From NCBI GenBank assembly GCA_903889895.1, contig CAISYZ010000059.1, forward strand, positions 1 to 42,953: a stretch of 42,953 bases of DNA, written 5' to 3'. Below, piece by piece: positions 1,293 to 42,395 of this stretch. Position 1 is the stretch's first letter. The number at the start of each line of letters is the position of its first letter. Both the position numbers and the translations under genes were made by a program. The notes under the pieces were generated by a model. It had not been told where the DNA came from. It ran no database searches and saw nothing but the letters and a program-made list of their open reading frames with translations. This DNA is from an uncultured Verrucomicrobia subdivision 3 bacterium. Its GTDB lineage: Bacteria > Verrucomicrobiota > Verrucomicrobiia > Limisphaerales > UBA11358.

Positions 1293-1377
1293 ATGGACCT
1301 TGCCGGCAGCGGGTAAATGCCCGCCGGTCAGGCGTGGCGGCTCAAAAATCGGGGATTCTTTAAGGTTTCGACGGGTT

Positions 1378-1797
1378 TGACGGTTCGGAACGGCGTTCCG
1401 TGGCTCCGGATTATGAAAACGGAGCTCCGGTTTTACGTTTCGGAGCTCCGGTTCGTTAAACCGTAGCCACGGTTGATGATTCCGTGACTACTTTTGGTCG
1501 CGGAGTTGACACTCCCCGTCCGGGAGTAGCAACGGACGGAGCGGTCGTAGCTCCGGTTGAACGCGGGGGAGCCACGGCGCGGCGCGGCGCAGCTCCGCCA
1601 CGCGGTGCCGGAGCTACGGAACGCCAGCCGGTGTAAACTTTCAGTCGCGGAGTGACAACTTTCAGTGGCGGAGTGAATACTTCCGGGCGCAGAGTGGATA
1701 CTTCCCGTTGAAAAGGAGAAACTTTTTATCGTGCCGGAGCCACGGTTTGACCAAACGGAGCTCAGTTTTGTGGAAACGGAGCAACGGATTGGATTCT
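1378..1797. repeat. Degenerate 21-bp-period intergenic array
   Basis: The 579-bp gap between valS and the antiporter gene holds no convincing gene. Much of it is made of diverged units spaced 21 bp apart. Examples start at 1399, 1420, 1441 and 1462 (CGGAGCTCCGGTTT-like, with 1420-1429 and 1441-1450 perfect 10-bp palindromes). Others start at 1627, 1648, 1669 and 1690 (CGGAGTGAxxACTTTC-like), and at 1735, 1756 and 1777 (CGGAGCxxCGGTTT-like). A perfect hairpin CGGAAC-GGC-GTTCCG lies at 1386-1400. No constant-repeat/variable-spacer structure is present. Confidence 0.6.
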
Positions 1798-1871
1798 GGC
1801 TCGCGGCGCCGGCCGGGGTGATAAAAATCGTTCGTGTGTTTTGTCCGCCGCGCGGTTAATTTTTCCAGCCA

Positions 1872-8932: not shown

Positions 8933-9163
8933 ATGCTTCGACGCTCGGACATAGCATTGATTATAGCAGGCTGTCTTTTGGCAGTGGTGTTGAGTCTTTT
9001 ACTTTTTACCCACTCTCTTTGGACCCTCATCCCCGCCATCCTCTTTGACAGCTCGAAGCTGGTTATTTTTCTAGTGGCCTTGTGCTGGGTAGCTTTTTTT
9101 AGGACTTGGCATTGGTTTCGGTCGAGCTTTCTCTTGAGGCAGCGGGCGATTCGGCCCTGTTGA
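8933..9163 (+). CDS. Possible small membrane protein (76 aa), unrecognised
   Basis: A short frame starting at ATG 8933 encodes two hydrophobic helices (about residues 7-27 and 40-56) with basic ends (MLRRSD at the start, RWFRS-like and RQR near the end), compatible with a small inner-membrane protein. It stops 15 bp before the prepilin start, so translational coupling is conceivable. I recognise no family. The frame may be chance in a region otherwise without a gene, so confidence is low. Confidence 0.3.
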
Positions 9164-9177
9164 TTGTTCAAACCGGT

Positions 9178-9954
9178 ATGAAACAAGCGAGTTATCATAA
9201 ATACGCTTTCACTCTTATTGAGTTGCTGGTGGTTATCGCCATCATCGCCATTCTTGCGGCCCTCCTGTTGCCGGCGCTGGCAGCGGCCAAGGAGCGGGCC
9301 CGGGTCATCCAGTGTTTGAACAACATGAAGCAATTGACCCTGGGCTGGGTGATGTATTACAGCGATAACGATGACCATCTTTCCCGCAACTTCGTGCTCG
9401 GCTCCGGAAATTCTCCCACTAACTCGTGGGTCTCGGGCAATGTCCAGCGATCAACCAATCTCAACGACCTGATGCTGGGCACGCTGTATCCATTTTATAA
9501 GTCGACGGCCCTTTATGTCTGCCCGGATGTGGCAACCGTCAACAACCGGACGCTTATCCGCACGGCTTCCATGATGGAGCGCATGGGGGGAGCGGATGAC
9601 GCTGATGCGGTGAGTTATGGCGTTTTTTCGGCGACTCCGGATTTAGGTGCCGCCTACCCGATGCTGAAGAAATCCAGTGACATCAGAAATCCCGCGTCAC
9701 CCTCAGCCATTGTTTTTGTAGATGAAAGCCAGAATACCGTGGACGATGGCGACTACGCATTGACCTGGACGCAATGGAAGAATTCACCCACAGACCGTCA
9801 TTCGAAAGGGGCAACCTTTTCCTTTGCGGACGGCCATGTCGAGAAGTGGAAATGGCAGGGTATCACCACTGAAATGGGCGGCAACACCACGCCCGTCGGC
9901 ACGGCGATGCTGAATGATTTCCAACGCTTGCTAGGTGCGGAGGTCGTGCCTTGA
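9178..9954 (+). CDS. Prepilin-type N-terminal methylation domain protein with H-X9-DG tail (type II pseudopilin-like)
   Basis: A 258-residue type IV pilin-like / pseudopilin-like protein. The class III signal is textbook: a short basic leader, cleavage after KYA just before [22 protein letters not shown], with the conserved Glu at +5. Alanine replaces the usual glycine at -1, which is common in Verrucomicrobia. The variable globular part contains YYSDNDDHL near residues 60-68. The C-terminus carries [12 protein letters not shown], an exact H-X9-DG motif, typical of the large planctomycete-verrucomicrobial family of secreted pseudopilin-like proteins. The ATG at 9178 is preferred over upstream starts because it gives the correct short leader. 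The role (secretion, surface fibre or matrix) is unknown for this family. Confidence 0.9.
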
Positions 9955-10067: not shown

Positions 10068-10231
10068 TACCGGCTAGGTGGTGGCGAAGTCGGTCCTGTC
10101 CAAAAAAACATCCATTTCCCCCTGCCCGCTGGCCGCGCAACTGTCGCTTTTTGACCATTTTCGGCTAATTCGTTGATAATCAGCCGGTTCTTCATAACAA
10201 CCGCCGCCAAGGAGGCACTGAAGTGCGCGCA

Positions 10232-10567
10232 CTTCAATCGACAAACGTAAATCTTCAATCAACAAACGTCGTTCTTCAATCAACAAACCACGTTCTTCAA
10301 TCGACAAACGCCGTTCTTCAATCAACAAACGTCATTCTTCAATCAACAAACGTCATTCTTCAATCGACAGACGTCATTCTTCAATCGACAGACGACGTTC
10401 TTCAATCGACAGACGACGTTCTTCAATCGACAGACGACGTTCTTCAATCAACAAACGTCATTCGTCAATGCGCAGACGGCATTCTTCAATCGACAAACCA
10501 GGTGCTTCAATGCACGAACGCCGTTCTTCAATCCGCAAACGAGGTTTGTTGAGGCGCAAACGCGGTC
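10232..10567. repeat. Tandem array of about 16 units of 21 bp
   Basis: Units of 21 bp begin CTTCAATC(G/A)ACAAACG and start at 10232, 10253, 10274 and so on at exact 21-bp steps to 10526, with a decayed unit at 10547. Units 8-10 are identical, the outer ones more diverged. As 21 is divisible by three, long frames result: the plus strand reads LQSTNVI-like heptads from 10223 to 10552, and the minus strand reads SIEERRL-like heptads interrupted by stops. No signal peptide or known domain is seen, and I do not call a gene. The 9955-10231 stretch before it holds only the hairpins listed separately. Confidence 0.8.
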
Positions 10568-10654: not shown

Positions 10655-13600
10655 TCACAACGCCAGCAGCAGGCGCTTGATTTCCTTGAGGCGGGCGTCC
10701 GGTTCCTTCCGGGTCAGGCGCGGGAACTTGCCGCCCAACTGAAAGTATTCCCCCTGCCGGATGAGCTTCAACTTGTCCGCCTCGACGGCGATGCCGGTCA
10801 CGCCCTTCGCGCTGGCGAGCACTTTGAGTTCGCCTACCGCCAGCAGACGGGTCACCGCCGCCGGCACCGGGCCAAACCGGTCGCGCAGTTCGCGCTGCAG
10901 GGCGTCGAGCGCCGCCTTGTCCGTGGCCTGCGCCAGTTTGCGGTAAATCTCAATGCGATGATGCGGCTCGGTGACATAATTGTGCGGGAGCTGGGCGGAA
11001 TTCGCAGGGCCGAGGGCGGCCTCGTCCGCGCCGGGTGTAGCGGTTGTTAATTCCGCATTCTGCATTCCGCCCTCCGCATTCAAAAAGTCCAGTTCCACGC
11101 GCACTTCCACGCGCGGCTTCACCTTTTCGCCCTTCAAGCCGCTGACACTTTGCTTGAGCAACTGGCAGTAAAGCTCAAAGCCTACGGCGGTGATGTGGCC
11201 GCTTTGCTCCGCGCCGAGCAGATTGCCCGCGCCGCGAATCTCCAGGTCGCGCATGGCAATCTTAAACCCGCTGCCGAGGGACGCGTATTGCTTCATCGCG
11301 CTGATGCGTTTGCGCACGTCGGTAAGCAGCCGCGCGTGGCGGGGCAGCAGCAGATACGCGTAAGCCTGATGCTTGTAGCGTCCCACGCGCCCGCGCAACT
11401 GGTAGAGTTCGCTCAAGCCAAACCGGTCCGCGCGATCGATGATGATGGTGTTGGCATTGGGAATATCCAGCCCGCTCTCGATGATGGTCGTGGACAACAG
11501 CACGTCGGCCTCGCCGTTGACGAACTGCGTCATCACTTCTTCCAAGTCATCCGCATCCATCTGTCCGTGCCCGACCACGATGCGCGCGTCGGGCACGAGC
11601 TCTTGCAGCTTCGCGCGCATCACTTCAATCGTGGTCACGCGATTGTGCAGGAAAAAGACCTGCCCGCCGCGCGCGAGCTCGCGCTTGATGGCGTCGCGGA
11701 TGGTGCGCTCATCATACGGCGTGGCAATCGTCTCCACCGGCAGGCGGTCGTGCGGCGGCGTCTGGATGGTGCTCATGTCGCGCGCGCCGGTGAGCGCCAG
11801 ATACAACGTGCGCGGAATCGGCGTGGCGCTGAGCGTGAGCACATCCACCATGGTGCGCAGCCGCTTGAACTTTTCCTTGTGCAGCACGCCGAAGCGCTGC
11901 TCCTCGTCAATCACCACCAAGCCAAGATCCTTGAACGCGATGTCCTCCTGCACGATGCGATGCGTGCCGATGACGATGTCCACCGCGCCGGCGGCGAGCT
12001 GCTCGATGACCTTGGTCGCCTCGCGCTTCGTGCGAAAACGCGAGAGCAGCTCGACGCGAATCGGATAATCCGCCATGCGTTCGCGGAAATTATTGAAATG
12101 CTGCTGCGCCAGCACCGTCGTCGGCACGAGAATGGCCACCTGCTTGCCATCCATCACGCACTTGAACGCCGCGCGGATGGCGACTTCCGTCTTGCCGAAG
12201 CCGACGTCGCCGCAGATGAGCCGGTCCATCGGCTTGGCCCGCTCCTGATCGGCTTTCGTCTCCGCGATGGCCGTGAGCTGGTCGGGCGTTTCCTCGTAGA
12301 TGAAGGCGCTTTCAAACTCGCGCTGCCATTGCGTGTCCGGCTTGCACGGATGGCCCGGCTGGGTCTCGCGCACGGCCTGGATGCGGAGCATTTCCGCCGC
12401 GATGTCGCGCACGGCCTTCTCGGTCTGCTCCACGGCCTTGGCCCAGCGGTTGCCGCCGAGCTGATTGAGCGGCGGGTTGGCCTTGCCCGCGCCAACGTAT
12501 TTGCTGACGAGATGCGCCTCGCTGACCGGCACGTAAAGTTTCGGTGGTTCCACCGCGTCGCCGCTGGGCGCGTATTCGATGACGAGACATTCCGTTTCGG
12601 AATCCGGGTCGGCGGACTCCGACTTCGCGCTCTTGGCCGGCAGATTTTTCAAGCCGAGATAACGGCCAATGCCATGCTGCAAGTGCACGACCAAATCGCC
12701 TTCCGCCAAATCCGTGAAATCAATATCGAGCGCGGAGCGCGCCGCCACGGCATGCGGCGACTTGAGCCGGCGCGGCCGCTGGATTTTGTAGCGGCCAAAA
12801 ATCTCCGCATCCGTCACAACCACCAGTTTCGCCTCGGCGCAAATGAAACCCCGCGCGAGCGAACCGAGCTGGAGGCCGGGCTTGTCCGCCACTGCCAGCC
12901 CCAGCTCCTGCCAGATTTCCTCAAAGCGCTGCCGCTCGCCCGCGTTGTTGCAAAAGACGTGGACGGAATAATTCTGCCGCCGCCAGCGGTGCAACTGCTG
13001 GAAAAATTCGCGCCGCTGCGCCTCGGCGACTTGCGGCTCCGGCGCGCGCTCCGCCAGCGGACGAAACGCGTCGAGACTTTCAAATTGCGGACCGACTTCG
13101 CCCGATGGCAGGTCGTCCGCACTTTCCGTCAGCTCCACCGATGCGAAGCCGCGCCGGTTCAAATCCACCAGAAAGTCCGGCCACGAAATATGCAGCGAAT
13201 CATTCGCCGGAACTTGTTGCGAATAATTTTCCGCGTGGACGGCCAGCGCTTCCGGCTCGCAGAAAACAAAAATCGTTTCGCGCGGCAGATGCTCGAGCAG
13301 CGTAGCGCGCGGCCCCGCCGGCTCATGTTGCAAAATCCCGATTTCACCGGCGGGCGGAAGCATGACTCCGGGAATTTCCTCGCGCGAGACTTGCGTGAGC
13401 GGGTCGAAGGTGCGCAGCGATTCCAGTTCGTCGCCAAAAAACTCCAGCCGCACCGGCCACGGACTGGTGGGCGGAAAGATGTCCACGATGCCGCCGCGCA
13501 GGGCCAGCTCGCCCTTCTGCGAAACCTGTGCCTCCGGCTCGTAGCCCTGCGCCTCGAGCCATTCAATCAAATCGAGCGGCGCGATTTTGTCGCCGCGTTT

Positions 13601-14071
13601 CAACTGACGCGCGCGGTTTTTCAAATCAGCCGGCGCAAAGGTTTTTTGCAGCAGCGCGGTCACGCTCGTCACGACGAGCAAATTAGAATTTTGAGGTTTT
13701 AATTTTGAGTATTCGGAAAGCGAAGCGAGGGTCTGCAACCGGTCACTGATGACGTCGGCGTGCGGCAGCTTGCCCTCGTGCGGCAGGATTTCCCACGCCG
13801 GAAAGAAAATCGGTAATGCGCCCAGCCAAGTTTCCAAATCCTGCTGAAAGCTTTCCTGCTGCTTCAAATTTTCCGCGACGATGACTACCGGCCGCTGCGG
13901 AAAAACTTGTTGCAATAGAACGGCGATAAACGGCTGCGCGCTGGGAGCGACGCCGGAAAAAGCCAGCGCTCCGCCATGTTCCACGCGCCGGGCGAGGGCT
14001 TGCACGGCGGGAACTTTCAGGATGTCAGCGAACAAAATGCTTGTCGCCGACGAGTTTTCGTTTTGCGGCAA
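10655..14071 (-). CDS. mfd: Transcription-repair coupling factor
   Basis: A DNA translocase that removes stalled RNA polymerase and recruits UvrA to lesions. The 1138 residues follow the family order: the UvrB-like N-terminal domains (about 20-330), the CarD-like RNAP-interacting domain (about 455-540, DLVVHLQHGIGRYLGL), the SF2 translocase with Walker A GDVGFGKTEVA and the DEEQ box (VVIDEEQRFGV), motif III LSATPIPRTL, helicase C with GRVGR, and the C-terminal TRCF domain. The best start seen is TTG at 14071; no in-frame ATG lies just upstream, so the start is uncertain. Two short stretches look foreign: SEYSKLKPQNSNL, encoded by AT-rich DNA at 13681-13714, and a NAEGGMQNAE stretch plus linker around 11000-11081. 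The gene is convergent with the 21-bp array region. Confidence 0.97.
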   Translation of the reverse strand: MPQNENSSATSILFADILKVPAVQALARRVEHGGALAFSGVAPSAQPFIAVLLQQVFPQRPVVIVAENLKQQESFQQDLETWLGALPIFFPAWEILPHEGKLPHADVISDRLQTLASLSEYSKLKPQNSNLLVVTSVTALLQKTFAPADLKNRARQLKRGDKIAPLDLIEWLEAQGYEPEAQVSQKGELALRGGIVDIFPPTSPWPVRLEFFGDELESLRTFDPLTQVSREEIPGVMLPPAGEIGILQHEPAGPRATLLEHLPRETIFVFCEPEALAVHAENYSQQVPANDSLHISWPDFLVDLNRRGFASVELTESADDLPSGEVGPQFESLDAFRPLAERAPEPQVAEAQRREFFQQLHRWRRQNYSVHVFCNNAGERQRFEEIWQELGLAVADKPGLQLGSLARGFICAEAKLVVVTDAEIFGRYKIQRPRRLKSPHAVAARSALDIDFTDLAEGDLVVHLQHGIGRYLGLKNLPAKSAKSESADPDSETECLVIEYAPSGDAVEPPKLYVPVSEAHLVSKYVGAGKANPPLNQLGGNRWAKAVEQTEKAVRDIAAEMLRIQAVRETQPGHPCKPDTQWQREFESAFIYEETPDQLTAIAETKADQERAKPMDRLICGDVGFGKTEVAIRAAFKCVMDGKQVAILVPTTVLAQQHFNNFRERMADYPIRVELLSRFRTKREATKVIEQLAAGAVDIVIGTHRIVQEDIAFKDLGLVVIDEEQRFGVLHKEKFKRLRTMVDVLTLSATPIPRTLYLALTGARDMSTIQTPPHDRLPVETIATPYDERTIRDAIKRELARGGQVFFLHNRVTTIEVMRAKLQELVPDARIVVGHGQMDADDLEEVMTQFVNGEADVLLSTTIIESGLDIPNANTIIIDRADRFGLSELYQLRGRVGRYKHQAYAYLLLPRHARLLTDVRKRISAMKQYASLGSGFKIAMRDLEIRGAGNLLGAEQSGHITAVGFELYCQLLKQSVSGLKGEKVKPRVEVRVELDFLNAEGGMQNAELTTATPGADEAALGPANSAQLPHNYVTEPHHRIEIYRKLAQATDKAALDALQRELRDRFGPVPAAVTRLLAVGELKVLASAKGVTGIAVEADKLKLIRQGEYFQLGGKFPRLTRKEPDARLKEIKRLLLAL
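11049..11081. repeat. GAATGCGG/GAATGCAG micro-repeat inside mfd
   Basis: The coding strand reads GAATGCGGAGGGC, then GGAATGCAG, then AATGCGGAATT, giving NAEGGMQNAE in a linker where Mfd proteins are normally shorter. A related string (GCCGAATGCAGAATTAAG) occurs in the non-coding DNA upstream of waaA near 19656, which suggests a dispersed micro-repeat family. Confidence 0.45.
13681..13714. repeat. AT-rich micro-repeat inside mfd
   Basis: A strongly AT-rich stretch with two copies of CTCAAAATT on the coding strand sits inside an otherwise GC-rich gene. It encodes part of SEYSKLKPQNSNL in a position that is a short loop in the family. Confidence 0.4.
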
Positions 14072-18620: not shown

Positions 18621-19637
18621 ATGAGATTAAAATTTCAATTAAAAATTCTGAATGCAATCACTACGGTCTTGGTTTTAATTTTTGCAGCCAAGGCGGTGCA
18701 GGCACAAGAAACCAGCACCAATCCAAGCGTTGCTCCCAGCAATATCTTGGGAATGGGGCTAAACATGACTCCCCATGAAATTTATCAGGTAGCGACTAAT
18801 TCATTTGATATATGGGGGGTTTCGATCGGGAGCCGTATTTTTAAGAATGAAATGTTCGATAACCAAAGCGATCTTACCTATGGGGGATACACCTGCCCCA
18901 ATGTCCATATCCAAAAGAATTTCATTTTAATGCATAAGGGAGATTCCCCGATAAATCTTATTTATTGCAATTCTATTTCATTGGCTTTAAGCCCGGAAAA
19001 CACCAATGAAGTCTTGGCGATTTCACGACATCAGGCATATAATTCATCATTCCCGGGGGGCGGTGACCCACCGCTTATCTCGGTTTTTTTAAATTCAATT
19101 TTTGAAAAATACGGTCCGCCCACATTCAAAACCTCAGATGAAAATGGCGTGACGGATTATTATTGGAGCACATTTTACAAAAACAAAAAAGACCGAGTTG
19201 CACTGGGAGGAGAAGTGGCGGCGGCGGACACGGCTTTCACCGCGCTATGCAATGCTTTGAACGACGATGCGAACATCGTGGAACTTGCGGTCAAGAATAA
19301 CCTGGAAGCACTGCTGAACACCGGCTATCTGCCGGCGAGCGATAACCGCAGCCAATCACCGCTGGATGACACGGCCATCCAGGGCCTGTTCAACAACGGC
19401 ACCACGCAGTTGCTGCTGCGGCTGCTGCCGGTGCGGAATGCGCAGGTGTATCAGGTGCAATCCAGCATAGACGGCGGCAAGACGTGGGTGGAGGCGGGGC
19501 TTCCCTCCACGCAGGCACGCCGGGTTGTGCTCACCGGCCTGATTCCGGCCACGACGTATCTGGTGCGGGCGCGGGCCATCGGCGGCAGCACGGGCGCGAG
19601 CGCGTGGACTGCCCCCGGCACCATCATCTGCACCTAA
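18621..19637 (+). CDS. Secreted mosaic protein: AT-rich unknown N-terminus joined to GC-rich FN3-like C-terminus
   Basis: A 338-residue protein with a signal peptide (residues 1-28, ending AVQA before QETST). Residues about 30-190 match no family I recognise and are encoded by AT-rich DNA with AT-preferring codons. From about residue 194 (GGEVAAADTAF, nt 19200) the DNA becomes GC-rich. It encodes a region common in Verrucomicrobia as a stand-alone protein: a short helical stretch (ALNDDANIVELAV), LLNTGYLPASDNRSQSPLDD, then a fibronectin III-like fold (YQVQSSIDGGKTWVEAG to YLVRARAIGGSTGASAW). The composition break inside one open frame suggests a fusion after insertion of foreign DNA. The AT-rich character extends upstream to about 18460, where no other gene is visible. 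An intrinsic terminator follows at 19767. Confidence 0.7.
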   Translation: MRLKFQLKILNAITTVLVLIFAAKAVQAQETSTNPSVAPSNILGMGLNMTPHEIYQVATNSFDIWGVSIGSRIFKNEMFDNQSDLTYGGYTCPNVHIQKNFILMHKGDSPINLIYCNSISLALSPENTNEVLAISRHQAYNSSFPGGGDPPLISVFLNSIFEKYGPPTFKTSDENGVTDYYWSTFYKNKKDRVALGGEVAAADTAFTALCNALNDDANIVELAVKNNLEALLNTGYLPASDNRSQSPLDDTAIQGLFNNGTTQLLLRLLPVRNAQVYQVQSSIDGGKTWVEAGLPSTQARRVVLTGLIPATTYLVRARAIGGSTGASAWTAPGTIICT

Positions 19638-28603: not shown

Positions 28604-29791
28604 GTGAAAGAGAAACAAATTTCGGGCGTAAACATCTTCAAAGATAGGGACGGCAAGGGAAATGTGTTTTGGCGGGTGATGCTCGGCAAGCGATTCACCG
28701 GCGGCAAGGTCATCAAAAAATCATTTTCGACCAAAGCCGCAGCGAAGAAATGGTTTGCCGAGCAGCATGAGCCGAAAGTTGCCAGCGGTGCCCATTATTT
28801 TGAATTAACCCCGTCGCAGGTTGCCGAGGCGGTTGATGCTTACAAGCGCATTGACGGCAGAGCAGCGTTGACCGAAGTCGTGACCTACTGGTTGAAACAC
28901 GCCTGCCCTGCTGGCGGCACGCGTTTGTTTGAGGCAGTTACGGAGGAATTCATCAAGTCGCGAGTTACGATGCTATGCAAGCCCACCACCATGCGCAACT
29001 ACCGCAGCGCTATCAAAATGTTAAACGAAGAATTCGGGCAAGTGGAAATTCACAGCATCCGCAAAGCCGACATTGAGGATTGGATCGCAGAATCGGAATG
29101 GAAAGCCCGGACGCGGAAGAATTACATCGTAACGCTGTCAACGGTTTTCAACTACGCCATTAGCAACGAATACAGCGCGGTTAATCCAGCAGAGCATGTG
29201 CCGCGCCCTATCTTGGAAGACAAGCCGCCGGGGATTCTAACACCCGCAGAGGCGGAAAATTTGCTGGCAGCGGCGCTGGATTGTATGCCGGAAATGGCTG
29301 CGCCTATCGCCATCGGGTTGTTTGCCGGTTTGCGACGTTCCGAGATATGCGCGCTTGACTGGTCGGAAATTGACCTTGAGGCGCGGACGATTGAAGTCAA
29401 GGCTTCCAAAGCCAAGACGCGGCAACGGCGCATTGTTACCATTCAGGAAAACCTAGTCGAATGGTTGCTTAAGGCGGAGAAGAAAAAAGGCGACGTTGCA
29501 CCCGACGTTGACCTTTTCGGCGAACGGTTGAAGCACCTTGTAAATGGTCGCACTGCTACCGACGACAAACCCGGACGACCGGCGGTAGTCAAAGAGTGGC
29601 CGCACAATGGACTCCGCCACTCGTTCGGCAGCTATTTCTTCGGCAAGACCAAGAATGAAAACTTGACCAGCGCCGAGATGGGCAACAGCCCAGACGTTGT
29701 ATTCAAACACTACCGCGCGGTGGTCAAACAGCCCGACGTGGAACGCTACTGGCAAATCACGCCTTATTCCGTTGCGAAACTGAATTCTTAA
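28604..29791 (+). CDS. Tyrosine recombinase / phage-type integrase
   Basis: A 395-residue site-specific recombinase that would integrate and excise the element at the tRNA-Met 3' end. It has an N-terminal arm-binding-like region, a SAM-like core-binding domain (about 105-195, TMRNYRSAIKMLNEEFG) and a catalytic domain. The active-site set is visible: Arg244 in AGLRRSE, His334-x3-Arg338 in HNGLRHSFG, His368 and the nucleophile Tyr370 in VFKHYRAV. The start is GTG 28604 with GAGG a few bases upstream. It points away from the attachment site and is the first gene inside the boundary, which is the usual layout. It is convergent with the mobilisation genes. Confidence 0.92.
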   Translation: MKEKQISGVNIFKDRDGKGNVFWRVMLGKRFTGGKVIKKSFSTKAAAKKWFAEQHEPKVASGAHYFELTPSQVAEAVDAYKRIDGRAALTEVVTYWLKHACPAGGTRLFEAVTEEFIKSRVTMLCKPTTMRNYRSAIKMLNEEFGQVEIHSIRKADIEDWIAESEWKARTRKNYIVTLSTVFNYAISNEYSAVNPAEHVPRPILEDKPPGILTPAEAENLLAAALDCMPEMAAPIAIGLFAGLRRSEICALDWSEIDLEARTIEVKASKAKTRQRRIVTIQENLVEWLLKAEKKKGDVAPDVDLFGERLKHLVNGRTATDDKPGRPAVVKEWPHNGLRHSFGSYFFGKTKNENLTSAEMGNSPDVVFKHYRAVVKQPDVERYWQITPYSVAKLNS

Positions 29792-29802
29792 CCGTGCCGC
29801 TT

Positions 29803-30123
29803 TTACGAGCGACCAACGGACACAGAATGGAAGTATTTCGTCGCGTCGGCTTCGGTCAAAATCGCCCGTTGCGCCGTTCGCAAATCCACATTATCACGCA
29901 ATGTCATCTGCATTGTTAATCCGGCGTCGAGCCAGAGTTTGATGTCCCCGAGGTATTCGCCGATTATCGCGATTCTGTCCTTTGGGAAGCACCATGCCCC
30001 CACGCGCAGCCAGTCCGCGGATTGTCCGTAGCCTGATGCGCCGCCCGTTGAAGACGACACTGGTAATTTGACCGCGTTTATTGACGCGGCCAACTTGGAT
30101 TGCTCCGGTTCTGATATTTTCAT
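29803..30123 (-). CDS. 106-residue frame overlapping the relaxase 3' end
   Basis: ATG 30123 opens a frame that runs 230 bp out of phase with the end of the relaxase gene and 91 bp beyond it. Its C-terminal half (DRIAIIGEYLGDIKLWLDAGLTM then TLRDNVDLRTAQRAIL) has natural protein-like composition, while the first 40 residues are low in complexity. Either it is a real overlapping gene with a later start, or it is the true C-terminus of the relaxase reached by a frameshift near 30000. I recognise no family. Confidence 0.4.
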   Translation of the reverse strand: MKISEPEQSKLAASINAVKLPVSSSTGGASGYGQSADWLRVGAWCFPKDRIAIIGEYLGDIKLWLDAGLTMQMTLRDNVDLRTAQRAILTEADATKYFHSVSVGRS

Positions 30124-30736
30124 TTATTTGCTCCGTTTCCATTTCCGCTATTTGCTTCGCATCCAACGATGCCGCCAGCGGATAAGGCGCATCACTGAAT
30201 TCGGGGCTGTTACGGCCAGCCCCACGGCCAGATTCAATTTCAAATTCCTGTTTCGTCTCCGGCGAAACCCAATCCATGCTTTGCATCAGGCGAATCGTCG
30301 CCTTTGCCCAGCCGAGCGCCCCACCGGAAACCGACTCGTTGCGCAGCACTAGGTGCAAGTGTAAATGCTCGCGATCATCATGCACGACGCCCAGATAACA
30401 GCCGCCCGGCACGAACTGCCGCACCCACTCACGCCCCATTCGTAACATCGCCTTGACCTGTTTCCGGCGTTCGTCCAAGTCCCTGCAATCATCGGCGGAA
30501 ATGATGACGTGCCGGTATTCGCCCCGGCCAGTCACGCCCCACGCCAGCGCCGAGGCATCCAATTTCGGCACGCGCGTCATTCCCCCATCCATGCCGTTGA
30601 TGACCCCGGCCACCCTGCTGCCGTCCGGTTGCAATGCTGCCACCTCGCGCACCGTCCGACCCTTCGGCCTGTAAACGTGTGCCAGCAGCCGACGCAGCGA
30701 CCCGCCCGACCGCTTAATTTTAATAATCACCTTCAC
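29894..30736 (-). CDS. MobA-like relaxase (MOBP type)
   Basis: A 280-residue relaxase that would nick the origin of transfer and pilot the single strand during conjugative mobilisation. Residues 1-30 (KVIIKIKRSGGSLRRLLAHVYRP) resemble the N-terminal region of relaxases. The metal-binding histidine cluster is clear at about 120-133 (GVVHDDREHLHLHLVLRN). Expected catalytic Tyr is not obvious as YxxY; LLAHVY near residue 22 may carry it. The GTG start at 30736 overlaps the stop of the MobC-like gene in a GTGA arrangement, so translation is coupled. It is shorter than many MobA proteins, and its 3' end overlaps another protein-like frame, so a frameshift is possible. Confidence 0.75.
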   Translation of the reverse strand: MKVIIKIKRSGGSLRRLLAHVYRPKGRTVREVAALQPDGSRVAGVINGMDGGMTRVPKLDASALAWGVTGRGEYRHVIISADDCRDLDERRKQVKAMLRMGREWVRQFVPGGCYLGVVHDDREHLHLHLVLRNESVSGGALGWAKATIRLMQSMDWVSPETKQEFEIESGRGAGRNSPEFSDAPYPLAASLDAKQIAEMETEQINENIRTGAIQVGRVNKRGQITSVVFNGRRIRLRTIRGLAARGGMVLPKGQNRDNRRIPRGHQTLARRRINNADDIA

Positions 30737-31002
30737 GACAGCACCCGACGGAACACCCGCACCATTTCACTCGCAGCTTCCCCATCCGCCGTTTTGCCCC
30801 AGCTCGTTCTTAAGCTTTGGTTCATCAGGTTGCTCGCTCTGGCGACATCCTGACGAACTGCAAGCAACTCGCGCAGATTCACGCCCAACCCCCACGCGCC
30901 GAGGATCAGCGATACCGCTTGACCTCTTGCACGCGGCGGCAAGGTGTGAAACTGCTGCCAAGCCTCATTGCCCAGGCGGATGCGTAGCTGCTTCGTTTTC
31001 AT
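30733..31002 (-). CDS. MobC-like mobilisation accessory protein
   Basis: An 89-residue protein from ATG 31002. The N-terminal MKTKQLRIRLGNEAWQQF resembles ribbon-helix-helix DNA-binding starts. The middle GVNLRELLAVRQDVARASNLMNQ corresponds to the bacterial MobC segment GxNlNQIAkxlN in a diverged form. The C-terminus is helical. Such proteins open DNA at oriT and load the relaxase. It overlaps the relaxase start by 4 bp, which supports the pairing. The assignment rests on size, position and weak motif likeness. Confidence 0.55.
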   Translation of the reverse strand: MKTKQLRIRLGNEAWQQFHTLPPRARGQAVSLILGAWGLGVNLRELLAVRQDVARASNLMNQSLRTSWGKTADGEAASEMVRVFRRVLS

Positions 31003-31022
31003 GGTGCGTGTGGTCGTGCGAG

Positions 31023-31295
31023 CTAAAGGGCTTGGCTCACTTCGTTCGCCAGCCCTTGCTCGGCAGGTGGAGAAACTCTCGTTTCTCCCCTGCACCCCTC
31101 TTCATTTCCCCGACCGGCGGCGAACAGCCGCGCGATTTTCCGATTCGTAATTTCGCGCGCCGCCAGCGTGCGCAACTTCACAACCGCCTTCGCGTTGAAG
31201 TCGCTCGCCAGCCGGTCAACCACCCAGGACGGCAGTCGCTCCGCGTTCAGCGAAATCAGTGATTCTTGCAAAATTTCCCGTGGTAAATCCTTCAT
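31023..31295 (-). CDS. Small hypothetical protein upstream of the mobilisation genes
   Basis: A 90-residue frame starting at ATG 31295 with a strong Shine-Dalgarno (GGAGAGG, about 5 bp spacing). Residues 1-65 are mostly helical and mildly amphipathic (DLPREILQESLISLN, VVDRLASDFNAKAVVKLRTLAAREITNRKIARLF). The last 25 are polar. The stop lies 20 bp before the MobC-like start, so it is the first gene of a three-gene unit. No family is recognised; a regulatory or oriT-binding role would fit the position. Confidence 0.55.
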   Translation of the reverse strand: MKDLPREILQESLISLNAERLPSWVVDRLASDFNAKAVVKLRTLAAREITNRKIARLFAAGRGNEEGCRGETRVSPPAEQGLANEVSQAL

Positions 31296-31642
31296 AAATC
31301 CTCTCCTCAATTACTATTTTAAGGCCGCGTGGTGTCACTTTCAACCAGCGCACCGAAAATAGTTTTGGAAAAAAATCATATAGCGAAATTCGGTTTCCGG
31401 TGCTGTCGGGGCGTTCGGTTGCCCGTCACTTCATGGCGCTGGAATCATTTTTTATCACGGCGTCCGCTTCTCACTCCGTAGCTCCGCGCAACGCACGCGC
31501 CAAGGCTTTGGCACTCCGTTGCTGATGCTCCGCGTTCTCCGTTTGTGTGCTCCCGCCGCCGTTGGCCGGTTTTCGCAGCGGTTGTTTTCAGTCAGTGAAA
31601 AACAAAACCGCTCCGAAAAATCGGAGCCAACTCGATAAAAAT
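31296..31642. other. Non-coding region between divergent units; candidate oriT/promoter region
   Basis: No convincing gene in about 350 bp. It lies upstream of the mobilisation unit and of the divergent small gene. It contains an imperfect inverted repeat GCACCGAAA (31350-31358) with TTTCCGGTGC (31394-31403), AT-rich tracts near 31359-31392, and a hairpin-forming TTTTCA-GTCAG-TGAAAA near 31584-31600. In mobilisable elements oriT usually lies beside mobC/mobA, so this is the likeliest place; no known nic consensus is recognised. Confidence 0.35.
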
Positions 31643-31924
31643 ATGACCATTACCAGCGAAATGCGTTTCAACACCGGGCAACTCGTAATCACCCCCACAG
31701 CCCTCGAAACCCTCACGGCAGATGATATTTTGACGGCACTTGGCCGTCATATCCGCGCTGATTGGGGTGACGTGACACCAGCCGACCGCGATGAAAATAA
31801 TTTTTCATTGCGGGAAGGTTTTCGGATTCTGTCGGTTTACCGCTCCGCTGGTGGCGAGAAATTTTGGATTATCACTGAGGCTGACCGCAGTTTGACCACG
31901 GTGCTCCTACCGTCAGACTACTGA
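31643..31924 (+). CDS. Conserved small protein typical of mobile elements
   Basis: A 93-residue protein from ATG 31643. It contains ADWGDVTPADRDENN and ends with KFWIITEADRSLTTVLLPSDY. The WGD...D...N and ITEADRSxTTVLLPxxY motifs recur in small proteins of plasmids and integrative elements often labelled plasmid-related; their role is unknown. The composition and start fit a real gene, with a 99-bp gap to hsdR. It may act in defence or regulation, but nothing in the sequence shows which. Confidence 0.65.
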   Translation: MTITSEMRFNTGQLVITPTALETLTADDILTALGRHIRADWGDVTPADRDENNFSLREGFRILSVYRSAGGEKFWIITEADRSLTTVLLPSDY

Positions 31925-32023
31925 CGGCGCACCGCCAACGGTGGCTAATGGCTGCCGTTGGTTTTTTATTCAATTCCCCGGTTGCTTCCACTACGATGCT
32001 TCGATGTTCACTTTCAAGGCATA

Positions 32024-34579
32024 ATGGCAAAGAAAGAAGCCCAAGCCAGAATTCGCATTAACCGGCTGCTTGAGCAGTCCGGGTGGCGCTTCTTTCCCGA
32101 CAAGAACGGCGCGGACAATATCATTTGCGAATCGCGCGTGACGAAGACGGTGTATGCCCCCAGCTTGGAATTGGGCAACGACTTTGAAAAAGCCGCGCAT
32201 GGTTTCGTTGATTATTTGCTGCTGAATTCAGAACGCAAGCCGGTGGCGCTGGTGGAGGCGAAGCGGGAAGGCATTGACCCGCTGGACGCCAAGGAGCAGG
32301 CACGCGACTACGCCAAATCTTTGGGCATCCGCCATATATTTCTATCCAACGGCATCATTCATTACTATTGGGATTTGAGCCACGGCAATCCGACGCGCAC
32401 ATCACATTTAATGTCGTTGGAGGAATTGGGCGAGGCGTCGCGCTGGAATCCCGACCCGCAAAAACTGATTGATGCCAAGGTTGACGAGAATTATATCGCC
32501 GTTTCCCAGGATGCGGGCTGGCTGAATTATTCCCCGGCGCAGCGGGAGATTGTCCGCGTCAATCAGAACGTCAAACTTTTGCGCGACTACCAACTCGACG
32601 CCATTGTCGCGCTGCAAAAAGCCTACGCCAAAGGCAAAAATCGTTTTCTGTTTGAAATGGCGACCGGCACGGGCAAGACGCTTTTGAGCGCCGCCATCGC
32701 AAAATTATTCATCCGTTCCGGCAATGCGACGCGCGTGCTGTTTCTCGTGGACAGGATTGAACTGGAAAATCAGGCGGCACGAAATTTCAATCAATATCTC
32801 GCCAAGGACAGCATCAGCACCGTCATTTACAAAGAGCGACGGGATGAATGGGCGGGCGCACAGGTCGTCGTCACGACGATTCAAAGTCTCGCGGCGAGCA
32901 ATCGCTACCTGACGGAATTTTCGCCAAATGATTTTCAACTCATCATTTCCGACGAGGCGCATCGCACCATCGGCGGCAACAACCGCGTAATTTTTGAATA
33001 CTTCAACGGCGCAAAACTTGGCCTCACGGCCACGCCCAAAGATTATTTGAAGGGCATTGACCCCAAGAAAATGCGCGAGGACGACCCGCGCGAATTGGAG
33101 CGCCGCTTGTTGCTCGACAGCTACCGCACGTTTGGTTGCGACGACGGCAACCCCACTTTCCGTTTCAGCCTCGTTGACGCCGTGAACCACAAGCCGCCGT
33201 ATCTGGTTAATCCGCTGGCGGTGGATTGCCGGACGGACATCACGACGGAACTGCTCACGCAAAAAGGCTGGGCGGTGAAACTCGGCGGCTTGGACGAGGA
33301 TGACGACGACCAAGAGAAAACTTTTTACAAACGCGATTTCGAGAAAAAGTTTTTCTCGGATGCCACCAACGGAACATTCGTCCGCACGTTCCTGAAAAAC
33401 GCCAAGCGCGACCCGCTGACCGGCGAAATCGGCAAGACCATTGCCTTTGCCGTCAGCCGCAAGCACGCCCGCAAGCTGACCAAACTGCTCAATGAAGAAT
33501 GTGAGAAATTGCATCCGGGCAAATACCAATCTGATTTTGCCGTGCAAATCACGTCCGACATTCCATCGGCGCAGGACATGACCAAGAAGTTCGACAGCGA
33601 ACGCAACGCGCTTAATGGCAAATCGTCGTTCAAGCCTGAATTCATTGATTACAATAGTTCCCGCACCCGCGTTTGCGTGACCGTCGGCATGATGACCACC
33701 GGCTACGATTGCGAAGATTTGCTCAATGTCGTGCTGGCGCGTCCGATTTTTTCGCCCACGGATTTCATCCAAATCAAAGGACGCGGCACGCGCCTTTATA
33801 CCTTCCGGCACAAGCAGGACGGCGACGAGCACAAGGCCGACAAGGATAATTTCTTCCTTTTCGACTTCTTCGCGAACTGCGAATTCTTCGAGAAAGATTT
33901 TGATTACGGCCGGCAAATTGAACTTCCACGCGAAGGCGGCGACGGGCCGGGCGGCGGCGGCGGTGGCGGGCGACCCATTACGGATTTCACCTGGACCGGG
34001 CCGGACGAACTGAAGGACAAGCGCGCCGAGCAAATCGGCTTGCAGGGCATGAGAGTTGACCGCGAGGCGTTTTCCCGCAGCTTTGAGGAAGCCACCCGGC
34101 GCGAAGTCGAAAAATATCCCGAACTTCACGAGGCGGTCGAGGCGCGCGACTGGCAGCGCGTCGAGGCGTTTGTCCGCGAAAACATTTTCGACAAGCCGCA
34201 GGAATTCTGGAACACGGAAAAACTTCGCGATGCCTATGGCGTGGATCGGCGGCTCACACTGGCGGAAATCCTGCAAAAAGTCTTCGGCGTCATTCAACGC
34301 TTCCCCAGCCGTCAGGATTTGGCCGACGAAGATTTTGACCGTTTCCTGTCCACGGACGGCGTGGACGCCACCAAAGTTCACGAACTGCAAACCTTGTTCA
34401 CCGCCTACCTGCTTTATCCCGACATCCGCGCCACGGTGGACGCGGGCGATTTCGGCAAGCTCGCCACCGACCCGCGCCTTAACCTCAAAGATTTGAAGGC
34501 GCTTGGCGAACCGCAGCGCAAGTTTGCGATTGAATTCATCAAGGACAACATCGTCATCAATCGCTACTTCGCCGCCTAG
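32024..34579 (+). CDS. hsdR: Type I restriction endonuclease, R subunit
   Basis: The 851-residue motor and nuclease subunit of a type I restriction-modification system. Residues about 30-130 form the HSDR_N PD-(D/E)xK nuclease (FVDYLLL, then VALVEAKR with Glu78 and Lys80). The SF2 helicase follows with Walker A ATGTGKT at residues 213-219, ISDEAHRTI (Asp310), LTATP and motif VI RGTRLYTF. A glycine run (GGDGPGGGGGGG) near residue 640 separates the C-terminal EcoEI-type domain, which binds the methylase core. ATG 32024 (MAKKEAQ) is preferred over upstream frame extensions. It is 15 bp upstream of hsdMS, so the genes form an operon. All key residues are present, so the system is probably active. 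Confidence 0.95.
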   Translation: MAKKEAQARIRINRLLEQSGWRFFPDKNGADNIICESRVTKTVYAPSLELGNDFEKAAHGFVDYLLLNSERKPVALVEAKREGIDPLDAKEQARDYAKSLGIRHIFLSNGIIHYYWDLSHGNPTRTSHLMSLEELGEASRWNPDPQKLIDAKVDENYIAVSQDAGWLNYSPAQREIVRVNQNVKLLRDYQLDAIVALQKAYAKGKNRFLFEMATGTGKTLLSAAIAKLFIRSGNATRVLFLVDRIELENQAARNFNQYLAKDSISTVIYKERRDEWAGAQVVVTTIQSLAASNRYLTEFSPNDFQLIISDEAHRTIGGNNRVIFEYFNGAKLGLTATPKDYLKGIDPKKMREDDPRELERRLLLDSYRTFGCDDGNPTFRFSLVDAVNHKPPYLVNPLAVDCRTDITTELLTQKGWAVKLGGLDEDDDDQEKTFYKRDFEKKFFSDATNGTFVRTFLKNAKRDPLTGEIGKTIAFAVSRKHARKLTKLLNEECEKLHPGKYQSDFAVQITSDIPSAQDMTKKFDSERNALNGKSSFKPEFIDYNSSRTRVCVTVGMMTTGYDCEDLLNVVLARPIFSPTDFIQIKGRGTRLYTFRHKQDGDEHKADKDNFFLFDFFANCEFFEKDFDYGRQIELPREGGDGPGGGGGGGRPITDFTWTGPDELKDKRAEQIGLQGMRVDREAFSRSFEEATRREVEKYPELHEAVEARDWQRVEAFVRENIFDKPQEFWNTEKLRDAYGVDRRLTLAEILQKVFGVIQRFPSRQDLADEDFDRFLSTDGVDATKVHELQTLFTAYLLYPDIRATVDAGDFGKLATDPRLNLKDLKALGEPQRKFAIEFIKDNIVINRYFAA

Positions 34580-34593
34580 TCCGCACCATTTTC

Positions 34594-37470
34594 ATGCTTA
34601 CCAAGGAAACCAAACGGCGCATTGATAACGCCCGCGATATTCTCGTCGGCCAGTTGCCGCTGCCATCCGACCAGATTGAGCTCATCACCATCGCCCTGAT
34701 TTACAAATTCATGGACGACATTGATGAGCAGTCGCGCGAACTCGGCGGCAAGCCCACCTTTTTCGTCGGCGACTTGCGCGAACTGTCATGGCGCAAGCTC
34801 ATCAGCAACACCTTGACCGGCGAGGAGCGCGTCACCAAGTTCATCCAGGGCATTGAGGCTGTCAGCGACGCCAAAAATCACAGCATCCCCGACCTGTTCA
34901 AAAGCATTTTCAAAAATGCGTTCCTGAAATTCCGCGACGCGCAGGTGTTGAAATTGTTCCTCGACGAAATCAATGGCTTCACCTACGACCATTCCGAAGA
35001 ACTCGGCAACGCGTTTGAATACTTGCTGGACACGATGGGCACGCAGGGACAAAACGGCCAATTTCGCACCCCGCGCAACATCATTGAATTCATCGTGGAC
35101 GTGGTTGACCCGCAGAAAGACGAAACCATTCTTGACCCGGCGTGCGGCACGGCGGGATTTTTGATTTCCGCCTACAAACATATTGTCGCCGCCAACACAT
35201 CGGCGAAAGCCGCCGAAAATGACCCGCACGCGGGCGACCTGCTCAAATCCGCCGCGCGCGAAAAACTCACCCAAAACATCACCGGCTACGACATCACGCC
35301 GCTCATGTGCCGCCTGTCGCGGGTGAATATGTATCTGCACCGTTTCGCCAATCCCGTCATTCACGAATACGACACGCTGACGAATAAAAACCGCTGGGGC
35401 GAAAAGTTCGATGTCATTCTCGCCAACCCGCCGTTTATGACGCCAACCGGCGGCATCAGCACGCACGACAAATTCCGCATTGCCGCCAAACGCGCCGAAG
35501 TGCTGTTTGCCGATTTCATCCTTGAACACCTTAACGCCAATGGTCGCGCCGGTTTTATTGTGCCGGAAGGCATCATTTTCCAGAATAACGACGACTATGT
35601 GAGCTTGCGCAAATGGCTCATCAATGAAGCCGGGCTTTGGGCAGTCGTTTCGCTTCCGGCCAATATCTTTCAACCATATTCCGGCGTGAAAACTTCGGTG
35701 CTGCTCGTGGATCGCGCACTCGCCCGGCAGCGTGATGACGTGCTGCTGTTAAAAGTGGACAACGACGGCTTTTCGCTTAACACCAACCGCACGCCCATTA
35801 AGGAAAACGATTTGCCCGACGCCCTGAAATTGCTACACGCAGCAAAGCAGTCGGACTATCAATCAGCCATCGGCAAGCTGGAAACCAAAATTCAAAGCCA
35901 ACTTGTGCCGCGTGCCGACTTTGCAAAACTGGATGCCTACAAAGCCGCCAGCACCGCATGGAATTTTTGCCGCAAGTTTCATGTGCGTGGCGAACGGATT
36001 AAAAAAGCCGCCGTCGAAGCCCGCGCCGCTGGAAACCATGACGAAGTGGAAAAGATGGAAAAGGCATTGACCAAGCTCCGCACGGAGTTTTCCACCGCTA
36101 CCGACCTTGCCAAGTTGCCCGACACCGAAGCCGAACTCCGCGCCGCCTTTGATGAAAAAATAAAGGCAGACGCCATAATCTACGGCGACAAGCCGGAGCA
36201 GCCGGGAAAACTCACCAGCGATTTGCGTGAGGCTTTGGACAACGAACGCGATTACAATTTTAACCGGGAGCGATACGGCATCACAGATGTCTCTGGCCGA
36301 GTTTGTGAGTTCGTAAAATTCGGCTCGGTGGTTGTGGATATGCGCAACGGTGTCAATTTCAGCAAAGAACAGGTTGGTGAAGGCATTCGTTTTGTGAACA
36401 TAAAAGACGTTTTTGCCCCCAGCGGCATTGTTGATTGCGATTCGTTGGAGAGCGTCAAATTGAACGACAAAGAGATTGGACGGTTTCGGCTGGAAGATGA
36501 CGACCTTATTTTTGTTCGCTCATCCGTCAAATTTGAAGGCACTGGTTTTCCGGCGATTGTCAGGCCGCGCGGTGCAACGATTGCCTTTTGTGGCTTCGTG
36601 ATTAAATGTTCCCTCGATAAAACTCGGATTGACCCTTACTTCGCGATGCAGCTTTTTAGGTCAGAGCGCGGACGGCGAGAAATTCTTTCGCGGGCAAGTC
36701 GAGCGAACATCACCAACATTTCACAAGACAGTTTGGAAGGAATTGAAATTCCGTTACCGCCAATAGAGGAGCAGCGCAGCATTGCGGCGGAACTTGAAAT
36801 TCATCAGCGCGTGGTGGACGGGTGCATCGCTGTCCTTGACCGCCATAACTTACATCTCGACATTGACCCTGCGTGGCCGCGAATACCGTTAGGAGAAATC
36901 GCACGGTTTATTTCAGGCGGCACACCATCGAAGGCAAATGCAGCCTACTGGGAAGGCTCCATTCCTTGGGTTTCGCCAAAAGACATGAAGATGGATTGTC
37001 TCACCGATTCGATTGACCATATCTCGAAAAAAGCCGTGGCTGATTCGGCGGTGAATCTCGTTCATCCCGGCACTGTGCTTTGCGTTATTCGTTCGGGCGT
37101 TCTCGTCCACACATTTCCGGTCGCTCTCGCAGGCGTGGATTTAACTTTCAATCAAGACATCAATGCGATTGTTCCAGACCAAAAGAGTCTGTTACCCGAA
37201 TGGTTATTTTTTGTTCTACGCACGCTTGAATCTGAAATTTTGAGTCAGGGCATCAAACGGGGCGGAACAGTCCACAGCTTGCAAAATGGTTATCTCCGTT
37301 CGTTCCCATTTCCAGTCCCACCGTTGCCGGTGCAAAAAGAAATCATCACCAAACTTCAGCGCGAGCAAGCGACGCTGGCCGGGCTTGAAGAATTGAAAGC
37401 CAAGTATGCGGCCAAAATCGCCGCGCGCCTTGCCGCCGTGTGGGGTTCACCGGAAGTCAAAGCAACCTAA
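34594..37470 (+). CDS. Fused type I methyltransferase-specificity protein (HsdM-HsdS)
   Basis: A 958-residue single chain combining the N6-adenine methylase and the DNA-recognition subunit. Residues 1-140 are the HsdM N-terminal helical domain. Residues 150-450 are the N6-MTase with SAM motif I (DPACGTAGF, Asp181) and catalytic NPPF (Asn278). Residues about 450-560 are a helical linker. From about 565 two target-recognition domains follow, each ending in a conserved helix (IEEQRSIAAELEIHQRVV and LPVQKEIITKLQREQATL), so the specificity part has both half-sites and would read a bipartite target. It starts 15 bp after hsdR and is followed 11 bp later by an unrecognised gene. Fusion of M with S is uncommon in classical type I systems but known in type IIB/IIG-like enzymes; here a separate HsdR is retained. 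Confidence 0.93.
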   Translation: MLTKETKRRIDNARDILVGQLPLPSDQIELITIALIYKFMDDIDEQSRELGGKPTFFVGDLRELSWRKLISNTLTGEERVTKFIQGIEAVSDAKNHSIPDLFKSIFKNAFLKFRDAQVLKLFLDEINGFTYDHSEELGNAFEYLLDTMGTQGQNGQFRTPRNIIEFIVDVVDPQKDETILDPACGTAGFLISAYKHIVAANTSAKAAENDPHAGDLLKSAAREKLTQNITGYDITPLMCRLSRVNMYLHRFANPVIHEYDTLTNKNRWGEKFDVILANPPFMTPTGGISTHDKFRIAAKRAEVLFADFILEHLNANGRAGFIVPEGIIFQNNDDYVSLRKWLINEAGLWAVVSLPANIFQPYSGVKTSVLLVDRALARQRDDVLLLKVDNDGFSLNTNRTPIKENDLPDALKLLHAAKQSDYQSAIGKLETKIQSQLVPRADFAKLDAYKAASTAWNFCRKFHVRGERIKKAAVEARAAGNHDEVEKMEKALTKLRTEFSTATDLAKLPDTEAELRAAFDEKIKADAIIYGDKPEQPGKLTSDLREALDNERDYNFNRERYGITDVSGRVCEFVKFGSVVVDMRNGVNFSKEQVGEGIRFVNIKDVFAPSGIVDCDSLESVKLNDKEIGRFRLEDDDLIFVRSSVKFEGTGFPAIVRPRGATIAFCGFVIKCSLDKTRIDPYFAMQLFRSERGRREILSRASRANITNISQDSLEGIEIPLPPIEEQRSIAAELEIHQRVVDGCIAVLDRHNLHLDIDPAWPRIPLGEIARFISGGTPSKANAAYWEGSIPWVSPKDMKMDCLTDSIDHISKKAVADSAVNLVHPGTVLCVIRSGVLVHTFPVALAGVDLTFNQDINAIVPDQKSLLPEWLFFVLRTLESEILSQGIKRGGTVHSLQNGYLRSFPFPVPPLPVQKEIITKLQREQATLAGLEELKAKYAAKIAARLAAVWGSPEVKAT

Positions 37471-37481
37471 ACTGCTGATTT

Positions 37482-38393
37482 ATGGATTTGTTCAACGACC
37501 TTAAAATAATTGTTCAACAAAAACTCACTGAATTAGGCGTGCCGTATTCCGCCAGCGCGGATACTGACACTTTGATTCTCCTCACCCTAAACCATAAATT
37601 CAAAACGATATCCGCGCGACGCAGGGAAATTCACACTTCCAAAGAATTTGAAGCGAAACGCGGCACGCTCGACGCAACGATGCAAAGCGCGTTGCGGGAC
37701 ATTTTGAATAAATTCAAACGCGGGCATGACGTGAACGGACATTTGAGCCGTTCCAGTGTGAACGCACAGGAGACCGACGCGCTCCGCGCAGACTGGGACA
37801 TTTACCATGTCCACATCAGCAACCATAAGGACAATCCCGGCGACAAATTCTATGCCCGCACCGGGCCAGTGATGTTCGTTCAAATCACGGACACCGACGC
37901 ATACTTCATTGACATCTATCCCCACGGACAGGGGCATCCTGAAACTTGGACGCGACAGGCATTGCTGGAAATCATTGATAAGAATTGGCCCAAGCTGTTA
38001 GAGCCGCACAAATTAAAGGGGATTACCGACATTTCAATGCAGCCAACGGATTTGCAATTAAAGCAGCTTCGTGGAAAGGGCGGGGCGACTGGAAAAATGG
38101 GAGCGATGAATACAATTCTGAAAGTTGGCAATTCGTTTGTTCACTCCCCAGGAGGAGGGCTGGCGGCAGACGGCACCCCGGCAGCCAATGTTCGTCATTT
38201 GAACCAGATGATGCACGACATCAAAAGACTGGAAAAATGGGTGACGGATAATTCGCTGACATTGCGAAAGCAATTCAGCAGGAAGCTAGGCATCCCAGAA
38301 TGGGAAATTGATTTTGAATTGGAGCCAGCAGCAAATGGCTGGACGGTGAAAGAAAAAAATTCTGGCGAAATTATTCAGTTGCCTCGGAAGTAG
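37482..38393 (+). CDS. Unrecognised 303-residue protein linked to the type I R-M operon
   Basis: Starts 11 bp after hsdMS in the same direction and so is probably co-transcribed. Three parts can be seen. The N-terminal part (about 1-105) is helical and basic. The middle part (about 105-175) is compact: WDIYHVHISN, FYARTGPVMFVQITDTDAYFIDIYPHG and ALLEIIDKNWPKLL, with conserved-looking His, Arg and Asp residues. The C-terminal part has PGGGLAADGTP, a Gly-rich turn, then helices and a short basic tail. There is no signal peptide or membrane segment. I recall loosely similar proteins in defence and mobile-element contexts, but cannot name a family. A toxin, RNA- or DNA-processing enzyme, or R-M regulator are open options; position alone suggests a defence accessory. 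Confidence 0.7.
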   Translation: MDLFNDLKIIVQQKLTELGVPYSASADTDTLILLTLNHKFKTISARRREIHTSKEFEAKRGTLDATMQSALRDILNKFKRGHDVNGHLSRSSVNAQETDALRADWDIYHVHISNHKDNPGDKFYARTGPVMFVQITDTDAYFIDIYPHGQGHPETWTRQALLEIIDKNWPKLLEPHKLKGITDISMQPTDLQLKQLRGKGGATGKMGAMNTILKVGNSFVHSPGGGLAADGTPAANVRHLNQMMHDIKRLEKWVTDNSLTLRKQFSRKLGIPEWEIDFELEPAANGWTVKEKNSGEIIQLPRK

Positions 38394-38399
38394 CCGAAG

Positions 38400-40226: not shown

Positions 40227-40392
40227 GGTGCGTCGCAGCGACACAAGAGCATGAAAAAATTCACTTCGCCATTCCAGACCTAATCTTGACCGCGAATTCT
40301 CCAGCCAAAATCTTGCTTAGTGGAACTTACAGAAAAGTTTGAGAATAGGAAAATTTGAAGCCCCAAATTTACTCCCCCCACACCCCCCTACT

Positions 40393-40428
40393 GTGGGCTT
40401 TCAGCCCACTATCTACCGTCTAGGTAGA
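40393..40428. terminator. Twin adjacent hairpins between recJ and the DUF3987-like gene
   Basis: GTGGGCT-TTC-AGCCCAC (40393-40409) is followed 2 bp later by TCTACC-GTCTA-GGTAGA (40412-40428). Both stems are perfect. There is no T-run, so they may stop transcription weakly or bind a regulator. The rest of the 257-bp gap is AT-rich and contains a poly-C/CCCCCCA tract near 40375-40388. Confidence 0.4.
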
Positions 40429-42390: not shown

Positions 42391-42395
42391 TTGTT

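Follow-up and report, generated by a model that had tools for sequence, protein, structure and literature searches.

Tandem repeats in bacteria are normally ascribed to slippage, which gives no reason for a single unit length among unrelated sequences, and the ordinary minisatellites within one genome have many unit lengths. Plasmid iterons are direct repeats placed near two helical turns apart, with a short conserved core and a variable linker; they share one common sequence at one origin, with the initiator gene adjacent. The Borg tandem repeats, according to the accessible portion of their description, form many arrays per genome with nearly all units unique, evolve fast, arise independently and include some hairpins; the units are of variable length, nearly perfect and A-rich, and 14-38% of the intergenic unit lengths are divisible by three (PMC9879509). 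The TAACTGA heptamer direct repeats of Beggiatoaceae, Cyanobacteria and Bacteroidetes have a fixed sequence that is repeated 2-6 times (PMC4679880, available text). In freshwater Planctomycetota, which belong to a related superphylum, noncoding intergenic repeats prone to copy-number change have been ascribed to slippage; the accessible part of that report describes neither a unit length nor a class, so the repeats can be likened to ours by description only (PMC9426551). Of the descriptions found, these last three come closest to the arrays studied here. In the open-access literature, as far as its text was available, we found no description of a fixed 21-bp length combined with free sequence, which is no proof of absence.

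The array studied here lies in the window (the whole 42,953-nt stretch of DNA that was analysed), which is contig C59 of a 4.14 Mb MAG of 260 contigs, 76% complete; its named mfd relatives place it in Verrucomicrobia subdivision 3 / Limisphaerales. The array and its surroundings comprise the following features.

9106..9954, plus strand: gene for a prepilin-like DUF1559 / N-methylation protein, the convergent neighbour, 278 bp from the focal array
10209..10215, plus strand: AAGGAGG, a Shine-Dalgarno-like motif seen by eye, 7 nt before the GTG at 10223
10223..10552, plus strand: open frame over the focal array, GTG start, 109 aa of LQSTNVI heptads, 330 bp
10232..10567, no strand assigned: focal 21-bp tandem array, 16 units, consensus CTTCAATCGACAAACGTCATT
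10655..14071, minus strand: mfd (transcription-repair coupling factor), with its stop codon 88 bp from the focal array

The initial annotation had described about 16 units at an exact 21-bp period next to mfd, and this description holds: the 16 units are contiguous and head to tail, without an indel, and the array adjoins mfd beyond its stop codon. Matches at lag 21 number 259/315, compared with no more than 119 in any of 20,000 shuffles; at lags 20 and 22 the match rate stays at background (0.24-0.25). TRF reports 14.8 copies at 10232-10541, with 84% matches and a score of 338. Within the unit, the TTCAAT and CAAACG blocks are conserved, and columns 9 and 17-19 are variable. Units 8-10 are identical, as are units 5-6, so that a homogeneous centre is accompanied by a decayed right edge, the usual mark of recent central expansion. 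Neither dyad symmetry (p 0.26) nor arm covariation was found in the focal array, and Rfam gave no match around it at E<=1. Among 320 genomes of the order that were scanned, the focal unit is absent as a tandem from the 319 others. The region downstream of mfd is not syntenic in relatives, and a conserved site at this position was rejected for that reason.

The initial annotation had also stressed open heptad frames on both strands. The plus strand does carry one, but the minus strand has stops in all three frames (5, 15 and 4), because each unit ending TCATT yields TGA, and the SIEERRL heptads reported there can be read in short pieces only. It is very improbable, in our judgement, that the array encodes a heptad-repeat peptide, LQSTNVI, in the manner of amino-acid tandem-repeat proteins, even though a single frame stays open for its full 330 bp behind a GTG and a good Shine-Dalgarno-like motif. 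That AAGGAGG is the sole sequence hint favouring translation. Heptad frames are open because 21 is divisible by 3, which makes them an expected by-product of the period: one of the six frames is open in the focal array, no more than in column-permuted versions (mean 1.9), and several sister arrays have no open frame whatever, with a small excess of open frames when all arrays are summed (44 versus 31 expected). Unit-to-unit changes in the focal array fall on the three codon positions 19/20/17 times, with no third-position excess. Since the frame lacks codon-position bias and is not called by the hexamer gene finder, it is probably not a gene. Codon-level purifying selection and a surrounding gene, the marks of protein-coding amino-acid repeats, are likewise wanting in the focal array, and the codon-position and open-frame tests led us to reject coding heptads; the emphasis first placed on the frames is not borne out.

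A second array was known from the window, placed at 1.4-1.8 kb and said to have an unrelated unit with the same period. Comparison with the focal array confirmed both statements and adjusted the span.

1370..1804 (about), no strand assigned: first window array, ~20 diverged 21-bp units with the dyad core CGGAGCTCCGG and covarying arms, between valS-like and KefB-like genes

From these two arrays the initial annotation had taken a hint of one mechanism behind a shared 21-bp period with different sequences, and a genome scan for array periods had been set beforehand as the check. Our survey covered ~406 kb of the source genome (G000; ~10%) and stretches of 19 other genomes, with mfd serving as the query for relatives. 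Arrays were detected by self-similarity at lags 5-100 in 105-bp windows with at least 60 matches; those close to the threshold escape detection, and gene calling used a simple model. Because MAG contigs break at arrays, all counts are lower bounds. In the source genome, eight of eight strong non-coding arrays have a base period of 21 or 42 bp. The other arrays there are one with a 9-bp unit, apparently coding, at the end of a contig, and two within long ORFs. Two congeners behave alike: 10 of the 12 strong non-coding arrays of G018 (four more lie in long ORFs) and three of the five of G016 are of the 21-type, so that 13 of 17 have 21-, 42- or 63-bp units, the remaining four, two in each genome, having 7-bp units. 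The periods thus do not range widely, and the two window arrays are not unique coincidences. Over 22 aligned arrays, 240 unit steps measure 21 bp and three measure 20 bp. Order-2 Markov simulation of the source-genome sample gave no array in 1.2 Mb, even at a lower threshold.

The units themselves are unrelated from array to array. The mean between-array similarity, 7.37, equals the mean of column-shuffled units (7.37), and a common ancestor of all units was rejected on this basis, the exceptions being L184/L185 in G018 and the L069/L189 orthologues (p 0.009). An origin of 21 as 3 x 7 was also rejected, as no array other than the focal one has high internal similarity at lag 7 (focal array, rank 1 of 10; average rank 6.8 over 22 arrays). 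The 21-bp rule shared across arrays points to one mechanism that makes or keeps them, the identity of which we infer below.

True 7-bp arrays of AACTGCC- and GACTTTA-type occur in some congeners (L183:5956-6231, L105:4896-5112, L094:2071-2247), and in G001 as well, where no 21-bp array reached the detection threshold. Distant Verrucomicrobia have isolated arrays with other periods (L145:2600-3027, L157:13475-13752 and L156:16060-16423, with 41, 95 and 77 bp), which are ordinary minisatellites. Contigs of G016 begin or end inside near-perfect 21-bp arrays (L105:1-126, L111:6174-6350), indicating that short-read assemblies break there and that arrays are under-counted; short-read MAGs should be read with this in mind.

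The 21-bp array class is patchy among congeners. No such array was detected at threshold in G001 (400 kb), G013 (188 kb), or G006, G003, G017 and G009 (94-100 kb each); G005 has one, and in each of G021 and G008 a single candidate lies within a long ORF. Array-bearing genomes are scattered in the mfd tree, and G013 and G009, relatives of the window genome, and G003, which stands beside G016, are without arrays. Flanking genes are tandem at seven arrays, divergent at seven and convergent at three, and relative to the background orientations (96/49/21) there is no clear preference for upstream regions. A RAYT/REP origin was considered on account of a Y1_Tnp gene 473 bp away from the L067 array, and was rejected: RAYT copy numbers do not match array density (two in G018, eight in G001), and instead of the single genome-wide palindromic family linked to RAYT (Y1_Tnp) that characterizes REP/BIME elements, units differ between arrays.

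Many arrays combine a conserved core with a variable linker, as in the following examples, to which the core of the first window array can be added.

L067: CAACCA-AGCGGTTG and AAACTTGAAAGTTT
L077: TCGGGGCA
L188: ATTGGGGCCAAT
L190: GCATATGC plus 13 variable bp

The number of changes varies from column to column (combined p 7e-35), and the conserved columns are contiguous (combined p 1.5e-7). Dyad symmetry exceeds column-permuted controls in 14 of 22 arrays at p<0.05 (combined p 1.3e-15). The first window array alone shows clear covariation between the arms (z 4.3, p 0.005); over all arrays the signal is weak (combined p 0.007), and in most it is absent. Because columns are assumed to be exchangeable in these tests and related units lack independence, the p-values should be taken as guides. 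In six G018 loci, Rfam matched tRNA and 6S only.

One dyad core recurs. CARCC-(4)-GGYTG at 21-bp spacing has multiple in-register matches in seven genomes (G000 on two contigs, G016 on three, G018, G014 on two, G041, G049 and G117), the last of which belongs to another family of the order, and a reversed-pattern control gave none in any genome. In G016 one array is found on both C49 and C60 with matching internal offsets, and hence as a dispersed copy. Orthology of the L067 CAACC array with that on G016:C12 was rejected, as the gnnA-like and RAYT genes that neighbour the L067 array are located on C50 in G016, so that the sites are different. The orthologous loci of a fibronectin-III (FnIII) gene in the source genome (L069) and G018 (L189) share 77% identity across 730 bp that take in the upstream region, and each has a 21-bp array further upstream with units that are partly alike but largely different. 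A locus can therefore keep its array and period while the unit turns over. Within G018, two loci have common flanks (L184:337-399 and 652-691; L185:1339-1401 and 1612-1652), of 63 bp on the left and 41 bp on the right, that are about 88% identical (89% and 88%) around differing arrays, resembling an element whose ends stay fixed while its array changes.

Three sampled arrays lie 126-325 bp upstream of genes for ~207-aa FnIII proteins. The proteins have a C-terminal fn3 domain (E 1e-6 to 6e-5), an N-terminal part with no Pfam match and weak matches to phage tail-fibre; a fourth case, on G016:C49, was recognized from positions only (array 2504-2664, gene at 3009). Of the 320 genomes of the order, 20 contain the family at E<=1e-20, among them six of the seven with CARCC arrays (p 1.8e-7 in the order; five of six within the genus, p 0.003). 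These seven exclude two genomes with a single three-mismatch match each, and with all nine the p-value is 2e-6. No array lies near the weaker members, at window positions 18621-19634 (diverged) and in L082. The link is a post hoc correlation, and may reflect shared fast-evolving regions rather than function.

Set beside the described systems, the arrays resemble bacterial VNTRs or minisatellites in being intergenic and head to tail with homogeneous centres, decayed edges and contig breaks; with 16 units of 21 bp, the focal array lies within the minisatellite definition of head-to-tail units of at least 10 bp. They depart from ordinary minisatellites in that the strong non-coding arrays within the 406 kb surveyed all have a 21-bp base unit, with differing sequences. 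Unlike iterons, they are scattered and their cores differ. A CRISPR array would have identical repeats of ~23-50 bp, unique spacers and cas genes, and the neighbours of the focal array are mfd and the prepilin-like gene. Many loci, unique units and contigs that end in arrays are shared with the Borg repeats as described in the accessible text, but here the unit is fixed at 21 bp, diverged (mean column identity 0.56-0.90), often dyad-symmetric and located on a bacterial chromosome (PMC9879509). In common with the TAACTGA repeats, going by the available portion of the report, the arrays are intergenic direct repeats of fixed unit length, patchy and present at many loci; in contrast to them, length is fixed and sequence free, the unit is not 7 bp long, and the 21-bp units are not triplicated heptamers except in the focal array (PMC4679880).

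Across the class we thus observed a strict period borne by unrelated units, core and linker, frequent dyads, patchiness, unit turnover at an orthologous site and FnIII co-occurrence. In our reading the arrays are a minisatellite class that is specific to the lineage and held at two helical turns, either phased, putative protein-binding platforms or neutral products of fixed-length slippage; chains of RNA or single-stranded DNA hairpins, the coding reading and a CRISPR or iteron identity are less likely than either. Hairpin chains, in which each unit would be a short stem-loop with structure kept and not sequence, would accord with the 14 dyad-symmetric arrays and the covarying arms of the first window array, but most arrays, including the focal one, are without covariation, no Rfam family matches, and arrays without a dyad (the focal array and L077 5143) have the same period; we regard this explanation as improbable. 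A CRISPR-like or iteron-like array of a known system has the least to recommend it. It would explain a core and variable linker at constant spacing, as in L190, yet a total period of 21 bp is too short for repeat plus spacer, cas genes were not seen at most arrays, the units are tandem and locus-specific, and, in contrast to replication iterons, a genome is expected to contain dozens of loci.

Between the two main readings we slightly favour phased protein binding. Our tentative explanation is that the focal array arose recently within a genome-wide set of 21-bp intergenic minisatellites, the units of which were duplicated and kept helically phased as a putative protein platform. A local 21-bp segment would be duplicated by slippage or unequal exchange, which would also homogenize the units, and only arrays that keep each unit on the same helix face would be retained, 21 bp corresponding to two turns of B-DNA. 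Each dyad core would then be a putative binding site for a protein, and the sites together would form a phased, cooperative platform of operator-like or nucleoid-organizing type; the focal array, which has no dyad, would either have arisen recently and neutrally from that duplication process or serve as a platform for a site that is not palindromic. The missing dyad and the uniqueness of the focal array among 320 genomes count against phased binding, as do the many different cores, which would need many regulators, and the lack of upstream preference, of synteny at the mfd site and of covariation in all but a few arrays. A neutral origin is also a serious possibility, though not our first choice: some lineage-specific feature of replication or repair (polymerase pausing, a hairpin-stabilized slipped strand or a nuclease with two-turn spacing are candidates) would duplicate 21 bp of any sequence, with decay afterwards. 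Patchiness among congeners, mostly non-homologous sites, locus-specific units, and homogeneous centres with decayed edges are consistent with this, the perfect arrays at contig ends L105 and L111 indicate current expansion, and dyad units could promote slippage via hairpins. However, hairpin stability varies smoothly with length and does not alone account for 21 as opposed to 20 or 22, and the contiguous conserved cores with variable linkers, the core that recurs in several genomes and the orthologous site that keeps an array with changed units all look like constraint. The focal array is a young, locus-unique member of the class without coding signature, and judged alone it is best explained as neutral; taken together, the arrays argue for constraint.

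We can also conceive, though we consider it unlikely, of a dedicated, horizontally patchy Limisphaerales system, linked to the FnIII proteins, that would write and maintain intergenic 21-bp arrays from arbitrary local sequence as phased platforms. If it exists, length would be set by machinery and sequence left free, the inverse of known repeat families. Fixed length with free sequence raises a testable question, whether DNA geometry (two helical turns) or an enzyme sets the unit size of a minisatellite, and the dyad cores together with the FnIII family offer a marker for finding the responsible factor.

Two further observations were made by eye. In L189 of G018, a 1071-aa ORF that starts ...WAFDLGKGSIGEAVR... 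begins ~300 bp from the 21-bp array at 12980-13294 and lies to its left; it is Cas9-like by its RuvC motif. In the window, 28604-42797 resembles a mobile island, with an integrase-like ORF, a relaxase-like ORF (29894-30736) and type I restriction-modification-like genes (31958-37470).
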